Under the pieces are notes generated by a model. That model was given only the letters and a program-made list of their open reading frames with translations, ran no database searches and was not told where the DNA came from. The translations under genes and the position numbers were made by a program. From a virus, in IMG/VR virus record IMGVR_UViG_3300020469_000325, positions 1 to 20,637 of that record: a stretch of DNA of 20,637 nt; one strand, written 5' to 3'. Shown piece after piece: positions 1,879 to 19,228 of this stretch (position 1 is the first letter of the stretch; each line of letters begins with the position of its first letter).

Positions 1879-3047
1879 TGGCATACAATCAGATACCTAA
1901 GACAGCTGCTGAGATGCGTAAGATGTCAAAGCATCTGAAGCATGCTGCTGAAGCTAGACGTGTGTATGATTACTGTGTCAAAGCGGAGTCAAGTATAAAA
2001 GATCCAATAGCGATGGATCCTAAAGAATCTAACATCATAAAGATATTCCGTGAACTCAAGGGTGTAATAAGTATTGATGAAATAAAGAGAGAGTGTAAGA
2101 TAAAGAATTTAAAACTGAGCAATCAGTCATGGGGTAATGGAACCAGAGGTGGCGGTGGTGCTAACAACCAAGGGTCTGCCTTTGAAAGAAAGTTAGTACA
2201 AGTATTACAGACATGGATAGCAGAGGGTACATATCCTAATGATGAGTATGGCACAATGATTAAAGGTATTGTTGAAGATCATGCCTTAGAAGATTGTAAA
2301 GCAGTGAAGGTAGAACAGGTAGGAGATCAGGATACTAAGAGACCTCTATCATTCCAAGGTGGTAGTTGGATGGTAGGTACAGCAGGTAACGGTAAGTATG
2401 ACATAGGTGAGAAAGTATCTGATGTGACTCTTGATCTAACATGTGCCGATGGTAGTGGTAGAAAGGTATACATCTCAGCAAAAACTTCTGGTACAGTTGC
2501 CTTGTCTAACTTAGGAACTAAGAGAAATGTATTTCCAGAGAAAGAGATACTAGCAGGAAAGATAACAACTCAAGCGGGTAAGAAATTAATGAAGACATTT
2601 GGTATCAAGGAAGCTGACATGGTAAAGATATTCCAAGAGGCAAGACAACAACATAAAGAAGGAAAGTCTAAGATCAAAGTCAAGAGTGGATACACAGATA
2701 ATAATGTTAGTATTGATCCTCTACTAAAAGGATTGATTCAAGGTTGTCTAGGTTATGGATATCATTATGTACATAAGCATAGTGGTGGTATCAAATCCTT
2801 TAACATGACAGAGAAGATCAATAAGAAAACAGCACAAGCAAATAAACTTGATGTATACTATGGTGGTAAAGGTGGCGAAGGTCAACGCATAGACATGGTA
2901 GTTGACACTCCAACCATGGAACTAAAGTTTAATATCAGAGACACCAGTGGAAAAGGAGAGGGTATACCTGATAAGTTTCAAGCAGGTTATAAGTTTAAAG
3001 ATGAGTCCGAGTGGAGTCTAGCAGATGGGGAGGAAGTAGATGAGTAA
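1878..3047 (+). CDS. Uncharacterised phage protein, possible PD-(D/E)XK-like nuclease fold
   Basis: A 389-residue protein with no family name I can assign. A basic helical N-terminus (residues 10-80) is followed by a Gly/Asn-rich linker (SWGNGTRGGGGANNQ). A core then runs through GSAFERKLVQVLQTWI (E103), SDVTLDLTCADG (D182, D186) and RKVYISAKTSG (K202). A helix with Glu, then a strand with Asp, a beta-hairpin, and a strand ending x-x-K is the order seen in PD-(D/E)XK nucleases, though motif III here reads S-A-K instead of E-x-K. The C-terminal half has another conserved-looking block (MELKFNIRDTSGKGEG). It overlaps the next gene by 8 bases and the preceding stop by one base. The nuclease assignment is inference. 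Confidence 0.85.
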   Translation: MAYNQIPKTAAEMRKMSKHLKHAAEARRVYDYCVKAESSIKDPIAMDPKESNIIKIFRELKGVISIDEIKRECKIKNLKLSNQSWGNGTRGGGGANNQGSAFERKLVQVLQTWIAEGTYPNDEYGTMIKGIVEDHALEDCKAVKVEQVGDQDTKRPLSFQGGSWMVGTAGNGKYDIGEKVSDVTLDLTCADGSGRKVYISAKTSGTVALSNLGTKRNVFPEKEILAGKITTQAGKKLMKTFGIKEADMVKIFQEARQQHKEGKSKIKVKSGYTDNNVSIDPLLKGLIQGCLGYGYHYVHKHSGGIKSFNMTEKINKKTAQANKLDVYYGGKGGEGQRIDMVVDTPTMELKFNIRDTSGKGEGIPDKFQAGYKFKDESEWSLADGEEVDE

Positions 3048-4242
3048 CATTGTAAAACTAAAACACCTAGAGCATATAGAAGATGAGATGCTCAACTATG
3101 GTACTGAAGGATGTATGGCAGCAGTGAGGTTTATGAACGAGCTCACTAAAATGATAGGTGGAGCTAGCAACACGGGATTCCTACAGACTAAGTGGGACGG
3201 TGCACCCTCTGTAGTATGTGGGGTGGATCCTGATAGTGGTGAGTTCTTTGTCGGTAACAAGTCCGTCTTTAATAAAGAAGAACCTAAGTTATGTTTTGAA
3301 GAAGCAGATGTAGATTACTACTACTCAGACAAACCAGGTTTAGCAGAGAAACTATCCGCTTCACTAAAGTATTTCTCTAAGTTAGGTATCAAAGGTGTGA
3401 TACAGGGTGACCTTATGTTTACTGATGGGGACAAGAAGACAGAGACTGTAGATGGTCAAAAACTTATTACATTCAGAGCTAACACTATCACCTACGGTAT
3501 ACCTGTAGACCATGAGTTAGGCAAGGCAGTATCCAAAGCAAAGATAGGTGTAGTGTTCCATACTCACTACACTGGTACTTCATTAGAATCTATGTCAGCA
3601 CAGGCAGGAGCAAAAGTAGAGAGCAGTCAAGACTGTGTTTGTATACAGAATGACACTCCCATCAATGACATAGGTATGGACTCATCTAACTTTAAAAAGT
3701 TTCAGTCTAACGTACAACTGATAGAGACTATGTGTCAGAAGTCTGGTAACTTTTTAGATCACCTCGTAGATAACATGGGGACGACAGGCAACAAGAAGTT
3801 TCACGTAGGATCATATCTTAAACAGTTCTTCAATGCGGAGATCAAAGCATCACGGAGAATCAACGATCCTAAGATAGCACTTAAGTCTCTTGGTGCGTTC
3901 TATAAAGAGAAGATGGATAAAGAAGTTTCCAAAATGAAAAGTCCTCAGAAGATAGCAGAGAAACGCAATTTTTTATACAGTGGTCTGACATACCTAGAGG
4001 ATAATGAGAAAGAGTTTCATGCTATGTTCGCACTCTATAGAAAGATACAAGACAACAAACAGTTAGTCATAGATGCTCTCGATAACTTAGAGTCATTCAA
4101 AACATATGTACAGACAGAGAATGGATACAGAGTGACAGCACCTGAAGGGTATGTGTTACATCACGAAGGAGACATGATCAAACTTGTAAATAGAATTGAG
4201 TTCTCATTCATTAACTTTACGCTAGACAAGTCATGGAAATAG
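3040..4242 (+). CDS. DUF6267-type phage protein with ligase-superfamily motifs
   Basis: A 400-residue protein that I recognise from memory as the phage DUF6267 type (TKWDGAPSVVCG, then EFFVGNKSVF, then LGIKGVIQGDLMF). It carries motifs in the order of covalent nucleotidyltransferases (DNA/RNA ligases, capping enzymes). These are K51-W-D-G54 (motif I KxDG), GD at 123-124 with hydrophobic flanks (motif III-like), E369-G-Y-V (motif IV-like EGxV) and IK381LV (motif V-like). Between motifs III and IV lies an unusually long, mainly helical insert of about 240 residues. If the assignment holds, K51 would be the nucleotidylated lysine. A GGGGAGGA ribosome-binding site sits at 3027-3034. The 3' end overlaps the adenylyltransferase gene by 10 bases. 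Ligase activity is inferred, not known. Confidence 0.87.
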   Translation: MSNIVKLKHLEHIEDEMLNYGTEGCMAAVRFMNELTKMIGGASNTGFLQTKWDGAPSVVCGVDPDSGEFFVGNKSVFNKEEPKLCFEEADVDYYYSDKPGLAEKLSASLKYFSKLGIKGVIQGDLMFTDGDKKTETVDGQKLITFRANTITYGIPVDHELGKAVSKAKIGVVFHTHYTGTSLESMSAQAGAKVESSQDCVCIQNDTPINDIGMDSSNFKKFQSNVQLIETMCQKSGNFLDHLVDNMGTTGNKKFHVGSYLKQFFNAEIKASRRINDPKIALKSLGAFYKEKMDKEVSKMKSPQKIAEKRNFLYSGLTYLEDNEKEFHAMFALYRKIQDNKQLVIDALDNLESFKTYVQTENGYRVTAPEGYVLHHEGDMIKLVNRIEFSFINFTLDKSWK

Positions 4243-4781
4243 TTGATTATAAATGTGTATACTTCACCTTCGGTAGGTTCCAACCACCTACAGTAGGTCA
4301 CGAATCAAACTTCAATGCTGTAGCAAGTAAGGCTGGAAAGTGTGACTGGTACATCTATCTCTCACAGACACAGAAGAAAGGAACTGATCCTCTATCACCT
4401 GATAGGAAACTATACTATGCTAAGAAGATCTTTCCTAAGATAGCGAAACAGATACGCAGTGGACCCCGTGATCCTGTCGGTGTACTGAAAGAGTTACAAA
4501 CACAGGGTTATGACGATGTTGTTCTCGTAGTTGGTAGTGATAGAGTACAGGCTATGCAGTGGATTAAAAGATACAACGGGAAGGACTATACCTTTAGGAA
4601 GATGGATATAATATCATCAGGTGAACGTGATGCTGACGGTGATACTTTCAGTATTTCTGGGACAAAAATGCGGAGAGCAGCAGCTGCGGGTGACTTCGAT
4701 TCCTTTAGAGCAGGTATACCAAAGGCTTTAGGATTGAAAGAAACGCGGAATCTAATGGATGAAATAGCAGAACTGTTATAA
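4233..4781 (+). CDS. Nicotinamide-nucleotide adenylyltransferase-like nucleotidyltransferase
   Basis: A 182-residue Rossmann-like nucleotidylyltransferase of the cytidylyltransferase/NadM-NadR class. The N-terminus has FGRFQPPTVGH (residues 13-23), matching the GRFQPxHxGH motif but with Thr20 where the first His of HxGH is usual. VVGSDR (99-104) is a typical middle motif, and ISGTKMR (141-147) is the ISSTxxR-like motif that binds the triphosphate. Family members join a nucleotide monophosphate such as NMN or a phosphorylated alcohol to ATP or CTP. NAD+ synthesis is the most likely activity by similarity. The gene overlaps the DUF6267-type gene and ends inside the late promoter box at 4777-4784. 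There is no NadR-type kinase domain. Confidence 0.85.
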   Translation: MEIVDYKCVYFTFGRFQPPTVGHESNFNAVASKAGKCDWYIYLSQTQKKGTDPLSPDRKLYYAKKIFPKIAKQIRSGPRDPVGVLKELQTQGYDDVVLVVGSDRVQAMQWIKRYNGKDYTFRKMDIISSGERDADGDTFSISGTKMRRAAAAGDFDSFRAGIPKALGLKETRNLMDEIAELL

Positions 4782-4808: not shown

Positions 4809-6020
4809 ATGAAGTCGTTCAGAGATTTCACAGCGGTAAGAAAAGAAGTCAAGCATCAAGAGGTGCGTGACCAGTATTATCGTGAAGAAATTTATAAGGA
4901 AGGTGAGTGGGTACTCACTGAGAAAGGTCACGTTGGAAAGATCATTCGCAGAGGTCCTAACTATCTCATTTGCCTGACAGCTGAAGAGACTAAGTTCCGT
5001 ACATGGGTCAAAGACGTTAAGGAAGTCTTTGAAATTGGTACGGATGCCCATAGGCAATACGTTATGTCATTGACACCAGGTCAAAAGGTTCAGAAACCTG
5101 CAGGCACGGTAGCAGTCAAACAAACAATACCAACAGACCCCAAAAAAGATAAGATGGACAACCATGAATCCCTAGTTCAAGCCGCAGTTCAGGCATTGAA
5201 TGAGTACTCACCAGTACCACCAGTTAAGAAGACACCAGTCGGAACTGAAGGTACAGCTAACAAGAATCCTAAAGGCACTGGCGGTGCTAAAGGTGTAGGT
5301 GGCGGTGACGCACCTGGCATGAAGATGGCAGAACCAAAAGGTACAAAGGGTAAGCCAACCATCAAAAAACCTAAGCATGCATGTGCTACTAAGGTTGAGC
5401 ATCCAGAGTGGGGAGCAGGTAACTGTCTCAAGGAACAGCATACACTAGACGAAGAAGGTATCGTAACTCATTACGACATCATGTTCGAGCATGGTCTAGA
5501 GAAAAACGTATCAATCAACAGCATCAATGTAACTCTATCTGAGTATCATGAACACGCTATCAACGATGACAAGAACAAAGAAGTTCTTGACGAGGGTGGT
5601 CTTGATCCAGTAAACAAGAAAGCAGTTAAGAAGAAGTTCGCAAACAGAAAAGATAAAGACTTAGATAATGATGGTGATACAGATAGCAGCGACAAGTATC
5701 TACACAAGAGAAGAAAGGCAATCTCTAAAGCGATGAAGAAGGAGCATCATGAAAAGGATAACGATGGAAGGGTTATCGCACATGATAAATCCGATGACGA
5801 TAAAGATAAGACACTTGGAAAAGTTTTCGATACAGCACCTAGCTCAGTAGAGGAAGCATCACTAGCAACAGCACGTAAGAACATAGGTAGAGATCCTAAG
5901 AAAGCTAGTTGTTGGAAGGGATACAAAGCAAAAGGAACTAAGATGAAGGGTGGTAAGTCAGTACCAAACTGTGTTAAAGAGTTCTCTGAGTGGCGTAAGG
6001 AAGTAACTGAAAAAAAGTAG
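4809..6020 (+). CDS. Modular late protein, putative virion-associated
   Basis: A 403-residue protein from the ATG at 4809 (a TTG at 4806 also precedes it). The N-terminal region has a small beta-rich, SH3/KOW-like stretch (GEWVLTEKGHVGKIIRRG, about residues 32-49). A Pro/Gly/Lys linker (about 130-195) follows. A second beta module, VEHPEWGAGNCL then YDIMFEHGLEKNV, resembles the Tudor-like UvrD/PcrA C-terminal domain. Residues 284-295 (DLDNDGDTDSSD) match an EF-hand/dockerin calcium loop, D-x-D-x-D-G with Asp at position 12. The C-terminus has CWKGYKAKGTKMKGGK, a segment I recall from other marine phage proteins. It follows a late promoter box, so a structural role is plausible. The stop is directly preceded by a slippery heptamer; see 5997-6078. 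Confidence 0.8.
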   Translation: MKSFRDFTAVRKEVKHQEVRDQYYREEIYKEGEWVLTEKGHVGKIIRRGPNYLICLTAEETKFRTWVKDVKEVFEIGTDAHRQYVMSLTPGQKVQKPAGTVAVKQTIPTDPKKDKMDNHESLVQAAVQALNEYSPVPPVKKTPVGTEGTANKNPKGTGGAKGVGGGDAPGMKMAEPKGTKGKPTIKKPKHACATKVEHPEWGAGNCLKEQHTLDEEGIVTHYDIMFEHGLEKNVSINSINVTLSEYHEHAINDDKNKEVLDEGGLDPVNKKAVKKKFANRKDKDLDNDGDTDSSDKYLHKRRKAISKAMKKEHHEKDNDGRVIAHDKSDDDKDKTLGKVFDTAPSSVEEASLATARKNIGRDPKKASCWKGYKAKGTKMKGGKSVPNCVKEFSEWRKEVTEKK

Positions 6021-6078
6021 TAGGTCCTGTTGAGATAATGCCTGAGATCGACGATGCCGATGGATCTCAACCGCACCT
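5997..6078 (+). promoter_or_regulatory. Candidate programmed -1 frameshift signal
   Basis: The zero frame ends GAA AAA AAG TAG, so the heptamer A-AAA-AAG (6011-6017) is correctly phased for -1 slippage and is identical to the E. coli dnaX site. An AAGGAA element (5997-6002) lies 8 bases upstream, like the dnaX internal Shine-Dalgarno stimulator. Downstream, AGGT (6022-6025) pairs with ACCT (6075-6078) and GTTGAGAT (6029-6036) pairs with ATCTCAAC (6064-6071), separated by a 3x3 internal loop. An inner ATCG/CGAT pair is possible. After slippage the frame reads V-V-G-P-V-E-I and runs into the ATG at 6038 without a stop. The product would be about 659 residues. An indel in the A7 run is the main alternative. 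Confidence 0.55.
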
Positions 6079-6787
6079 CAAAGGGGACAAGAAAATGCCC
6101 AAGGTACCTAAAGAGAAGGTAAAGGAGGCATGTAATCATACAGGTAAGGGTGATGAGTGCCCTGTACATGGTACAAAAGACTGTGCTACAGTCAAAGAAT
6201 CAGATGTAAAACCAGGTTCAGAAAAGAACTGTGGTTGTGGTCAGAAACCATGTCTTACATACGGTAAACTAAAAGAAGAAGCACCAAAAGGAAAAAAGTA
6301 TGCTAGGATGGTCAAGCATATAAAAAAGTCCTATAAGCGTAAGGACGGAAAACTTTCTAAAGACGAAGAAGGTATTGCTTACGCTACAGCATGGAAACAT
6401 AGTAAAGAGAATGCTTTCAACGAAGGTAAGTGTGGTAAAGGAGAGTACTTCTGTAACGATGATCAGAAGTGTAAACCTATACCCAAGGGTCATCATGTCA
6501 TGCCTGATGGTATGCTTATGAAAGGTAAGACTCACAGTGAAGGTGCTGCTTGGACTAAGAAGTCAGGCAAGAACAAGGAGGGTGGACTGAACGAGAAGGG
6601 ACGCAAGTCTTATGAACGTGACAATCCTGGCTCTGACTTGAAAGCACCATCAAAGAAGAAAGGAAACAAGCGTAGAGCAAGTTTCTGTGCTAGAATGAAA
6701 GGAATGAAGAAGAAGTTAACGTCTAAGAAGACTGCTAACGATCCTGATTCTAGAATTAATAAGTCCCTTAGAGCGTGGAATTGCTAA
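6038..6787 (+). CDS. Basic Cys-rich phage protein with DUF6321-type C-terminus
   Basis: A 249-residue, strongly basic protein (rich in Lys). The N-terminal part is Cys/His-rich (ACNHTGKGDECPVHGTKDC and NCGCGQKPC), suggesting metal binding. The middle contains YARMVKHIKKSYKRKDGKL and DEEGIAYATAWKHSKE, a helical motif I recall from other cyanophage proteins, and a second Cys cluster (GKCGKGEYFCNDDQKC). The C-terminal ~80 residues (GGLNEKGRKSYERDNPGSDL, RRASFCARMKGM, SLRAWNC) resemble the DUF6321 domain. It may be translated from the ATG at 6038, from an internal ATG at 6095 after AAAGGGGAC, or by -1 frameshift from the upstream gene. Function is unknown; a virion or nucleic-acid-binding role is inferred. 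Confidence 0.8.
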   Translation: MPEIDDADGSQPHLKGDKKMPKVPKEKVKEACNHTGKGDECPVHGTKDCATVKESDVKPGSEKNCGCGQKPCLTYGKLKEEAPKGKKYARMVKHIKKSYKRKDGKLSKDEEGIAYATAWKHSKENAFNEGKCGKGEYFCNDDQKCKPIPKGHHVMPDGMLMKGKTHSEGAAWTKKSGKNKEGGLNEKGRKSYERDNPGSDLKAPSKKKGNKRRASFCARMKGMKKKLTSKKTANDPDSRINKSLRAWNC

Positions 6788-18212: not shown

Positions 18213-18341
18213 ATGCAGACACGTAAACTCAAGCAACTGCTTGAACAACTTGAAGAAGTAATGGCAGAACTTAAACTTGAGGTATACTCAGACGTAGATA
18301 AGTATCGTGATGAAGATGGTTACTATAATGAAGACGAGTGA
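18213..18341 (+). CDS. Small charged helical protein
   Basis: A 42-residue product. The first half is a Leu-rich amphipathic helix (RKLKQLLEQLEEVMAELKLE) with a heptad-like pattern that could dimerise. The second half is acidic and Tyr-rich (YSDVDKYRDEDGYYNEDE). The ATG lies directly after the terminator U-tract. The 3' end overlaps the endonuclease gene by 14 bases. No family recognised. The strong helix periodicity and the tight junction with the next gene support it as a coding region. Confidence 0.55.
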   Translation: MQTRKLKQLLEQLEEVMAELKLEVYSDVDKYRDEDGYYNEDE

Positions 18342-18771
18342 CTATGAAAATCCCTGGTTATATAAAGGTAAACCTTTCACTACTGACGATATTGGCGATC
18401 TCTTCGGTTTCGTCTACCGCATTACAAATATCAGCACGGGCAAGCAGTACATCGGACGTAAATATTTCTGGCAAAAAAGAAAACCCAAAGGTGGAAAGCG
18501 TAGAGTTACTTCTGAATCAGACTGGAAGCGATACTTTGGAAGCTCTGAAGAGCTTAAACGAGACATTAAAGAACTGGGCAGAGAGAATTTCAGAAGAGAA
18601 ATCATCTCAGTCCACAGTACCCTTGGACAAACCAACTACGAAGAAACCAGACAACTCTTCCTCAACAACGTGCTCACAGAACATGTAGATGGCTTGCCAA
18701 AATATTATAATAGTAATATACTAGGTAGATACATGAGGAAAGATTACTTCAGACCAGATGCTGACAACTGA
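18328..18771 (+). CDS. GIY-YIG endonuclease-like protein (SegE-like)
   Basis: 147 residues from the ATG at 18328 (a GTG at 18307 would add 7). GFVYRITNISTGKQYIGRKY holds a GIY-YIG-like pair: FVY (28-30) and YIG (41-43) with R44. It is followed by ESDWKRYFGSSEELKRDIKE and NYEETRQLFLNNVL, where a Glu would complete the active site. Phages commonly carry this family, annotated as SegE-like or putative endonucleases. Some are mobile homing enzymes, while others are resident nucleases. No DNA-binding domain or intron is visible, and the gene sits in a tight operon, so a resident nuclease is likely. The first residue of GIY is replaced by Phe. Confidence 0.77.
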   Translation: MKTSDYENPWLYKGKPFTTDDIGDLFGFVYRITNISTGKQYIGRKYFWQKRKPKGGKRRVTSESDWKRYFGSSEELKRDIKELGRENFRREIISVHSTLGQTNYEETRQLFLNNVLTEHVDGLPKYYNSNILGRYMRKDYFRPDADN

Positions 18772-19228
18772 AGAGTTAGATATAATATACGAGTGGGGTA
18801 TGACAACTGAGTTACCCTACAAGATGGCACCCACTGCTGAGGGTTACTCGAACCAACCCATAGGTATGTGTTGGATGAAAGGCACTGGCAAAGGGTTCAG
18901 TGGTGTTCGTGAATCATTAATAGATGATAAGCGAGTGGTTGACATCCTATCTAAGGATGAGGTATTATTTGCTACAGGTGCTATGTTCTACGCAGGAACT
19001 AAGTTACCTAAGCACCGTGATCCTCCTGTCTATCCTGATAGATATAGAAGGATACACATACCATTAGTCATACCATGTGACAGATGTTGCTACATGATAT
19101 GGGATGGTAAGAAAATACCTTGGGAGTCTGGTAAGTATTCAGTGTGGGATGTCCAAGACGTAACACATGAAGCATACAATGTATCAGACGACGACATGGA
19201 ACTAATCTTTATCGACATAAAAAAATGA
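18758..19228 (+). CDS. Asp/Asn beta-hydroxylase-like protein
   Basis: A 156-residue protein resembling the Asp/Asn/Pro hydroxylase subset of 2OG oxygenases. FYAGTKLPKHRDPP has the proximal His (H86), followed by RRIHIPLVIPC (R98, H100). YMIWDGKKIPWESGKYSVWD precedes VTHEAYNVS with the distal His (H137). The family usually has an Arg shortly after the distal His (H-x-x-x-N...R-x-x-L-x-x-D), but here the segment reads DDDMELIFIDI with no Arg, so 2OG may be bound differently or the enzyme may be altered. It overlaps the endonuclease gene by 14 bases and the next gene by 4. Substrate unknown; distinct in sequence from the 6950-7654 protein. Confidence 0.72.
   Translation: MLTTEELDIIYEWGMTTELPYKMAPTAEGYSNQPIGMCWMKGTGKGFSGVRESLIDDKRVVDILSKDEVLFATGAMFYAGTKLPKHRDPPVYPDRYRRIHIPLVIPCDRCCYMIWDGKKIPWESGKYSVWDVQDVTHEAYNVSDDDMELIFIDIKK

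Follow-up and report, generated by a model that had tools for sequence, protein, structure and literature searches.

Does the end of one gene in a marine virus hold a programmed switch into the next, or are two neighboring genes merely close together? In the window (the whole stretch of 20,637 nucleotides of viral DNA analyzed here), a 403-codon gene ends in ...GTA ACT GAA AAA AAG TAG, with a run of seven A's at 6010-6016. The -1 frame carries a TGA at 6008-6010, immediately 5' of the slip codons, so that -1 reading starts at the slip site itself; it then stays open from 6011 to 6784, and its stop ends at 6787 (Table 1). A first-pass annotation had proposed a dnaX-like -1 frameshift signal here, with the slippery phase GAA AAA AAG TAG at the end of the gene, an AAGGAA element 8 bases 5' of the heptamer, a downstream stem, and a fusion of roughly 659 residues beside the 403-residue product. 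We verified these coordinates, frames and lengths (403+256=659 residues), with the exception of the stem discussed below; the label "late" that had been given to the two joined genes is not established. The comparisons below make a dnaX-type programmed -1 ribosomal frameshift, producing a C-terminally extended isoform, very probably the explanation of this junction.

Table 1. Features of the junction and of the two reading frames that meet there (window coordinates).
Feature	Position	Strand	Remarks
Frame-0 gene	4809..6020	+	403 codons; modular protein, C-terminus ...EKK
AAGGAA, Shine-Dalgarno-like (SD-like) element	5997..6002	+	8 nt before heptamer
Slippery heptamer A-AAA-AAG	6011..6017	+	-1 phase, fit for tandem slip
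-1 frame extension	6011..6787	+	256 residues after slip; ORF listed from ATG 6038
Frame-0 stop TAG	6018..6020	+	Directly 3' of heptamer
-1 frame core GPVEIMPEID	6023..6052	+	Spans and precedes ATG 6038; codon-position variation, alignment
Predicted stem-loop	6024..6088	+	6 nt after heptamer; -24.9 kcal/mol
Cys/His module CNHTGKGDECPVHGTKDC	6131..6184	+	Alignments
DUF6321 domain, extension C-terminus	6566..6778	+	Pfam PF19846, E 9.5e-23

Many relatives share the junction. When IMG/VR was scanned with the 403-residue protein, 80 loci were obtained, and those that reach the junction have a Lys-Lys end with AAAAAAG followed by a stop, except for three distant partial matches. A profile of the -1 module gave 138 matches with 73 distinct junctions, and every one of them has an upstream ORF, 60 codons or longer, with A AAA AAG in phase at its end; because these matches were gathered by the downstream protein, this count is unbiased. 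In total we collected 116 distinct junctions of this kind (type A) from IMG/VR contigs and cultured phages, this set being gathered by the heptamer, and they fall into 29 lineages, defined by identities below 75% over 157 nt. The cultured members are P-HM1, P-HM2, MED4-213, S-PM2, Syn1, S-CAM1 and S-CAM3, together with S-H9-2, Sf-FR1, Sf-FP1 and Sf-CH11; four S-RIM44 records are identical to Syn1 across the junction stretch, and the same junction turned up in one Prochlorococcus single-cell contig when genome contigs were scanned. Searched by tblastn with the first 49 residues of the -1 module, the cultured phages yielded P-HM2 only, and the Synechococcus-phage members surfaced only after S-CAM3 was followed. 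Public records show the two parts as separate genes, mostly hypothetical, or do not list the second part: the homologues are PHM1_163/164 in P-HM1 and p142/p143 in S-PM2, and the cyanophage clusters T4-GC 534/535 (P-HM1, P-HM2) and 842/843 (S-PM2), which hold homologues of both parts with the same signal, are recorded as independent genes without mention of recoding.

Within these junctions, the heptamer in its -1 phase is conserved beyond codon use, as expected of a dnaX-type signal: of the 266 Lys-Lys codon pairs that the frame-0 genes of the lineages have outside the junction, 26 are AAA-AAG, whereas at the junction this pair is universal. The E-K-K end is invariant in an alignment of 22 sequences, while the frame-0 C-terminus that precedes it is highly variable in both length and sequence. 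The frame-0 stop of the relatives is TAA, TAG or TGA and either abuts the heptamer or lies one codon further; since both its identity and its position vary, the heptamer is the fixed part.

To the 3' side, across 20 lineages, the -1 frame after the heptamer has 0 stops in 1000 codons, compared with 72 and 96 in the other frames. In 60 junctions, the codons between the heptamer and the first ATG (GGN CCN GTN GAG NTN) vary mainly at third positions, and the mean entropy 5' of this ATG is 1.05 bits at third positions versus 0.48 and 0.16 at the others. By these measures, coding in the -1 frame starts at the heptamer and takes in the stretch 5' of the first ATG. This result bears directly on the best-surviving alternative, in which ribosomes terminate at the stop and reinitiate at ATG 6038, so that the two parts are separate proteins and the junction merely couples their genes. 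Gene records do place the start at ATG 6038 or nearby, in distant relatives the module is indeed expressed from a gene of its own, which usually overlaps as ATGA, and in some junctions a GTG overlaps the stop as GTGA; yet the conserved GPVE[IV] precedes the ATG in the same frame, and 71 of the 116 junctions have no ATG, GTG or TTG between the last -1 stop and this motif. A GTG right after the heptamer is a candidate start in 21 junctions, and another start precedes the motif in 24 more. In the window, the 17 nt between the TAG and ATG 6038 hold no canonical start, and there is no ATGA overlap; ATG 6038 itself encodes the Met of a conserved Met-Pro, and where relatives have a separate gene this Met is well within the protein. 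Reinitiation also leaves unexplained the phase of A AAA AAG, its codon choice and the SD-like element 8-10 nt upstream, and we consider it improbable.

The SD-like element is kept in the relatives as GGAG, AGGAG or AAGGAGG, and in the S-PM2 group it reads AAGGAGGA; that of the window is among the weaker ones. Upstream pairing with the anti-SD sequence averages -7.4 kcal/mol versus -4.6±0.43 kcal/mol in synonymous shuffles, with 0 of 100 shuffles as good, although shuffle figures, here and below, are not strict probabilities because the lineages are related. Strong SD-like pairing is found in 27 of the 29 lineages at the distance typical of dnaX-type signals (about 8-14 nt upstream), and two lineages (L082 and L297) have no clear element.

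Every lineage has a predicted stem, whose start lies 2 to 9 nt, and in most cases 4 to 7 nt, 3' of the heptamer. In the window, where the fold was computed on the 73 nt after the heptamer, the predicted optimum pairs 6024-6028 with 6084-6088, 6030-6034 with 6077-6081, 6039-6041 with 6073-6075 and 6043-6049 with 6063-6069; its z score is -2.5 against dinucleotide shuffles and -2.9 and -3.7 against synonymous shuffles. Downstream folding likewise beats shuffles that keep the -1 protein, with a mean z of -2.7 over 20 lineages and -2.2 over 29. One related clade displays compensatory changes in its stem (12 cells versus a shuffled mean of 4.9; 0 of 500 as high), and sliding the stem partner lowers the fit in this clade. 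Covariation cannot be seen in the window's own clade, whose sequences are too similar: RNAalifold gave a different and poorly supported consensus for it, also because the outer partner is not the same from one subclade to the next. An Rfam search gave no match. The third element of a dnaX-type signal is present as a predicted stem-loop. The two complementary segments that the first-pass annotation had named as its stem (6022-6025/6075-6078 and 6029-6036/6064-6071) do exist, but they are far from the optimal fold: their energy is -11.1 kcal/mol and the best fold containing them reaches -15.7 kcal/mol, compared with -24.9 kcal/mol for the optimum. All three elements that had been claimed are nevertheless present, with selection on them demonstrable from conservation and shuffle statistics.

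The conservation of these flanking elements also weighs against transcript slippage, in which RNA polymerase would slip on the A run and the fusion would arise from mRNAs with an altered number of A's. Longer A runs are a known substrate of transcript slippage, and a run of seven is present in 108 of the 116 junctions; however, the run is never longer than seven, the 8 junctions with only six A's still keep the phase A-AAA-AAG, and slippage of this kind needs neither the SD-like element nor the stem, so we regard it as very unlikely. Although homopolymers are error-prone in sequencing and the risk had been raised at the outset, a simple indel in the A run, from sequencing or assembly, or a recent frame-breaking mutation has a negligible probability and can be dismissed, with numerous independent assemblies, as well as isolates that different groups sequenced (S-PM2 AJ630128, P-HM1, P-HM2, MED4-213, S-CAM1, S-CAM3, Syn1 and Sf-FP1), showing the same phase, both parts under coding constraint, and no uninterrupted gene with 6 or 8 A's among relatives of the window's group.

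Programmed frameshifting at this site would proceed as follows. Most ribosomes would read GAA AAA AAG TAG, stop, and release the 403-residue protein. A fraction would be held at the heptamer, by pairing of the SD-like element with the 3' end of the 16S rRNA and by the stem-loop ahead; in these ribosomes the two lysine tRNAs would slip back by one base, from AAA-AAG to pairing with AAA-AAA, and reading would continue in the -1 frame. The long product would then contain the GPVE[IV]MP..DD core and, in the window, the Cys/His module and DUF6321 after it. Sequence and its conservation demonstrate the three elements, the selection on them and -1 coding from the heptamer onward; we infer the slip, its efficiency and its purpose, which would be to set the ratio of the short and extended isoforms.

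The two parts are also joined in other ways in nature. In about 50 homologous loci without the heptamer (type B), the downstream module has a gene to itself, generally overlapping as ATGA; this form is found in cultured S-H9-1, S-CAM4, ACG-2014i, ACG-2014h and Sf-CH1b, and we noted it at L164, L167, L172-L222 and L247, mostly with ATGA. The separate gene begins with MK[ST]F[KN]Q[FL]RE (also given as MK[ST]FKQ[FL]REE), followed by the same VE[VI]MP core; in the window's group, the frame-0 C-terminus has an SF..[FW]R motif similar to this start. On contig L308 (1609-2172), CWKGYKA, EF-hand-like, Cys/His and IEVMPEIDD modules lie in a single frame, at the same place downstream of the CTP-transferase-like gene. 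The existence of three types of joint supports a functional link between the two parts, and the separate-gene relatives indicate that fusion is neither universal nor required in every lineage. It is possible, though somewhat short of probable, that marine T4-like cyanophages use a swappable translational joint to set the dosage of one C-terminal module: at one genomic place, the two parts would be linked by a dnaX-type -1 frameshift in some lineages, by ATGA-coupled reinitiation in others and by in-frame fusion in a few. If so, these phages offer a natural series for studying how a phage trades recoding for coupling. The relatives with reinitiation or in-frame fusion make the purpose of the frameshift directly testable. 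Elsewhere in the window (19219-19228), a gene ends in AAAAAAATGA and is overlapped by the ATG of the next gene (19225), an A-rich stop-start like that of type B.

The frame-0 protein is modular, with an EF-hand-like stretch and a CWKGYKAKGTKMKGGK module. AlphaFold2 models of this protein and of the extension had low confidence, with mean pLDDT values of 53 and 50; for the frame-0 protein, they suggest two small barrels of the SH3-like kind joined by linkers that are mostly disordered. A fold search gave no match at E≤0.001, only weak matches to Tudor/Hfq-like small barrels, and sequence-profile searches of solved structures with the protein parts found nothing. Homologues of the N-terminal part are fused to a cytidyltransferase-like protein, and PHROG_395 covers both. 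Our guess is that the protein may be a modular adaptor or a nucleic-acid-associated protein. A head-associated role is a further, speculative idea: the N-terminal MKSFRDF (window 4809-4830; MKSF..F) resembles the T4 capsid targeting sequence, and the C-terminal [IVL]-x-E-KK (window 5980-6017) resembles T4 prohead protease sites. In the extension, a C-x(6-9)-C-P-x-H-G motif is found in 15 of the 29 lineages, and the Cys/His module is possibly metal-binding, as judged from its residues.

The genes around the junction encode DUF6267, CTP-transferase-like and Asp/Arg hydroxylase-like proteins. In the window, a DUF6267 protein (3040-4242), which has a KWDGAP stretch reminiscent of ligase motif I, is followed by a CTP-transferase-like protein (4233-4781); phrog_455 covers both, indicating that they are fused in other phages. 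DUF6321, which in the window belongs to the extension, is represented in P-HM2 and S-BM3 by a DUF6321-like gene that instead lies between gp16 and the genes after it. The small gene after the cytidyltransferase in S-PM2 (L327, 179-454) bears the annotation ribonucleotide reductase (NrdB or alpha subunit), as do homologues in S-CAM3, S-H9-1 and Sf-CH11; this looks like a propagated misannotation, because what is related to them here is the frame-0 protein's small SH3-like domain. At 18307-18771 of the window, the PHROG name is NAD synthetase; this name may be wrong, since the product also matches homing endonuclease families.

The most abundant viruses known include the marine T4-like cyanophages, and their reference genomes, S-PM2, Syn1, P-HM1 and P-HM2 among them, apparently lack annotation of a strongly conserved recoding site, the records showing two unconnected hypothetical genes there. 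Gene models would be corrected accordingly; the predicted fusion protein would be missed by proteomics searches against current records. We found no prior report of frameshifting in cyanophages in the literature searched, which covers few subscription papers: the main text of a 2016 recoding review and the PRFect paper do not mention cyanophages, and the word frameshift is absent from a 16-genome cyanophage comparison. The PRFect paper (PMC10885494) cites Vladimirov 2022 to the effect that the tail chaperones of T4-like phages arise without frameshifting. The present junction would mean that T4-like phages do use -1 frameshifting, though reportedly not for the tail chaperone.

It is instructive to compare this junction with known systems. 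Like E. coli dnaX, it has the heptamer A-AAA-AAG, an SD-like element (about 10 nt upstream in dnaX) and a stem-loop a few nucleotides downstream. Unlike dnaX, the spacers and the stem sequence differ, the predicted shift product is the longer one here and the shorter one in E. coli, and the gene is a different one: membership of the dnaX family was rejected, since only unknown-function and cytidyltransferase-linked phage families match, with no tau/gamma subunit. As in the tail chaperone G/GT of lambda and many tailed phages, a -1 slip would extend the end of a gene to give short and long products; in contrast to G/GT, the neighbors are DUF6267 and the CTP-transferase-like protein, and this candidate was rejected because no tape measure gene adjoins. 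The T7 gene 10A/10B pair is similar in that a -1 slip near the gene end gives a C-terminally extended minor form, but the frame-0 product has no match to a capsid family, and a capsid of this type was rejected as well. The mechanism, of the dnaX type, is therefore already known; what is apparently new is the site, its gene family and its spread in marine T4-like cyanophages, as a strongly conserved instance of it.
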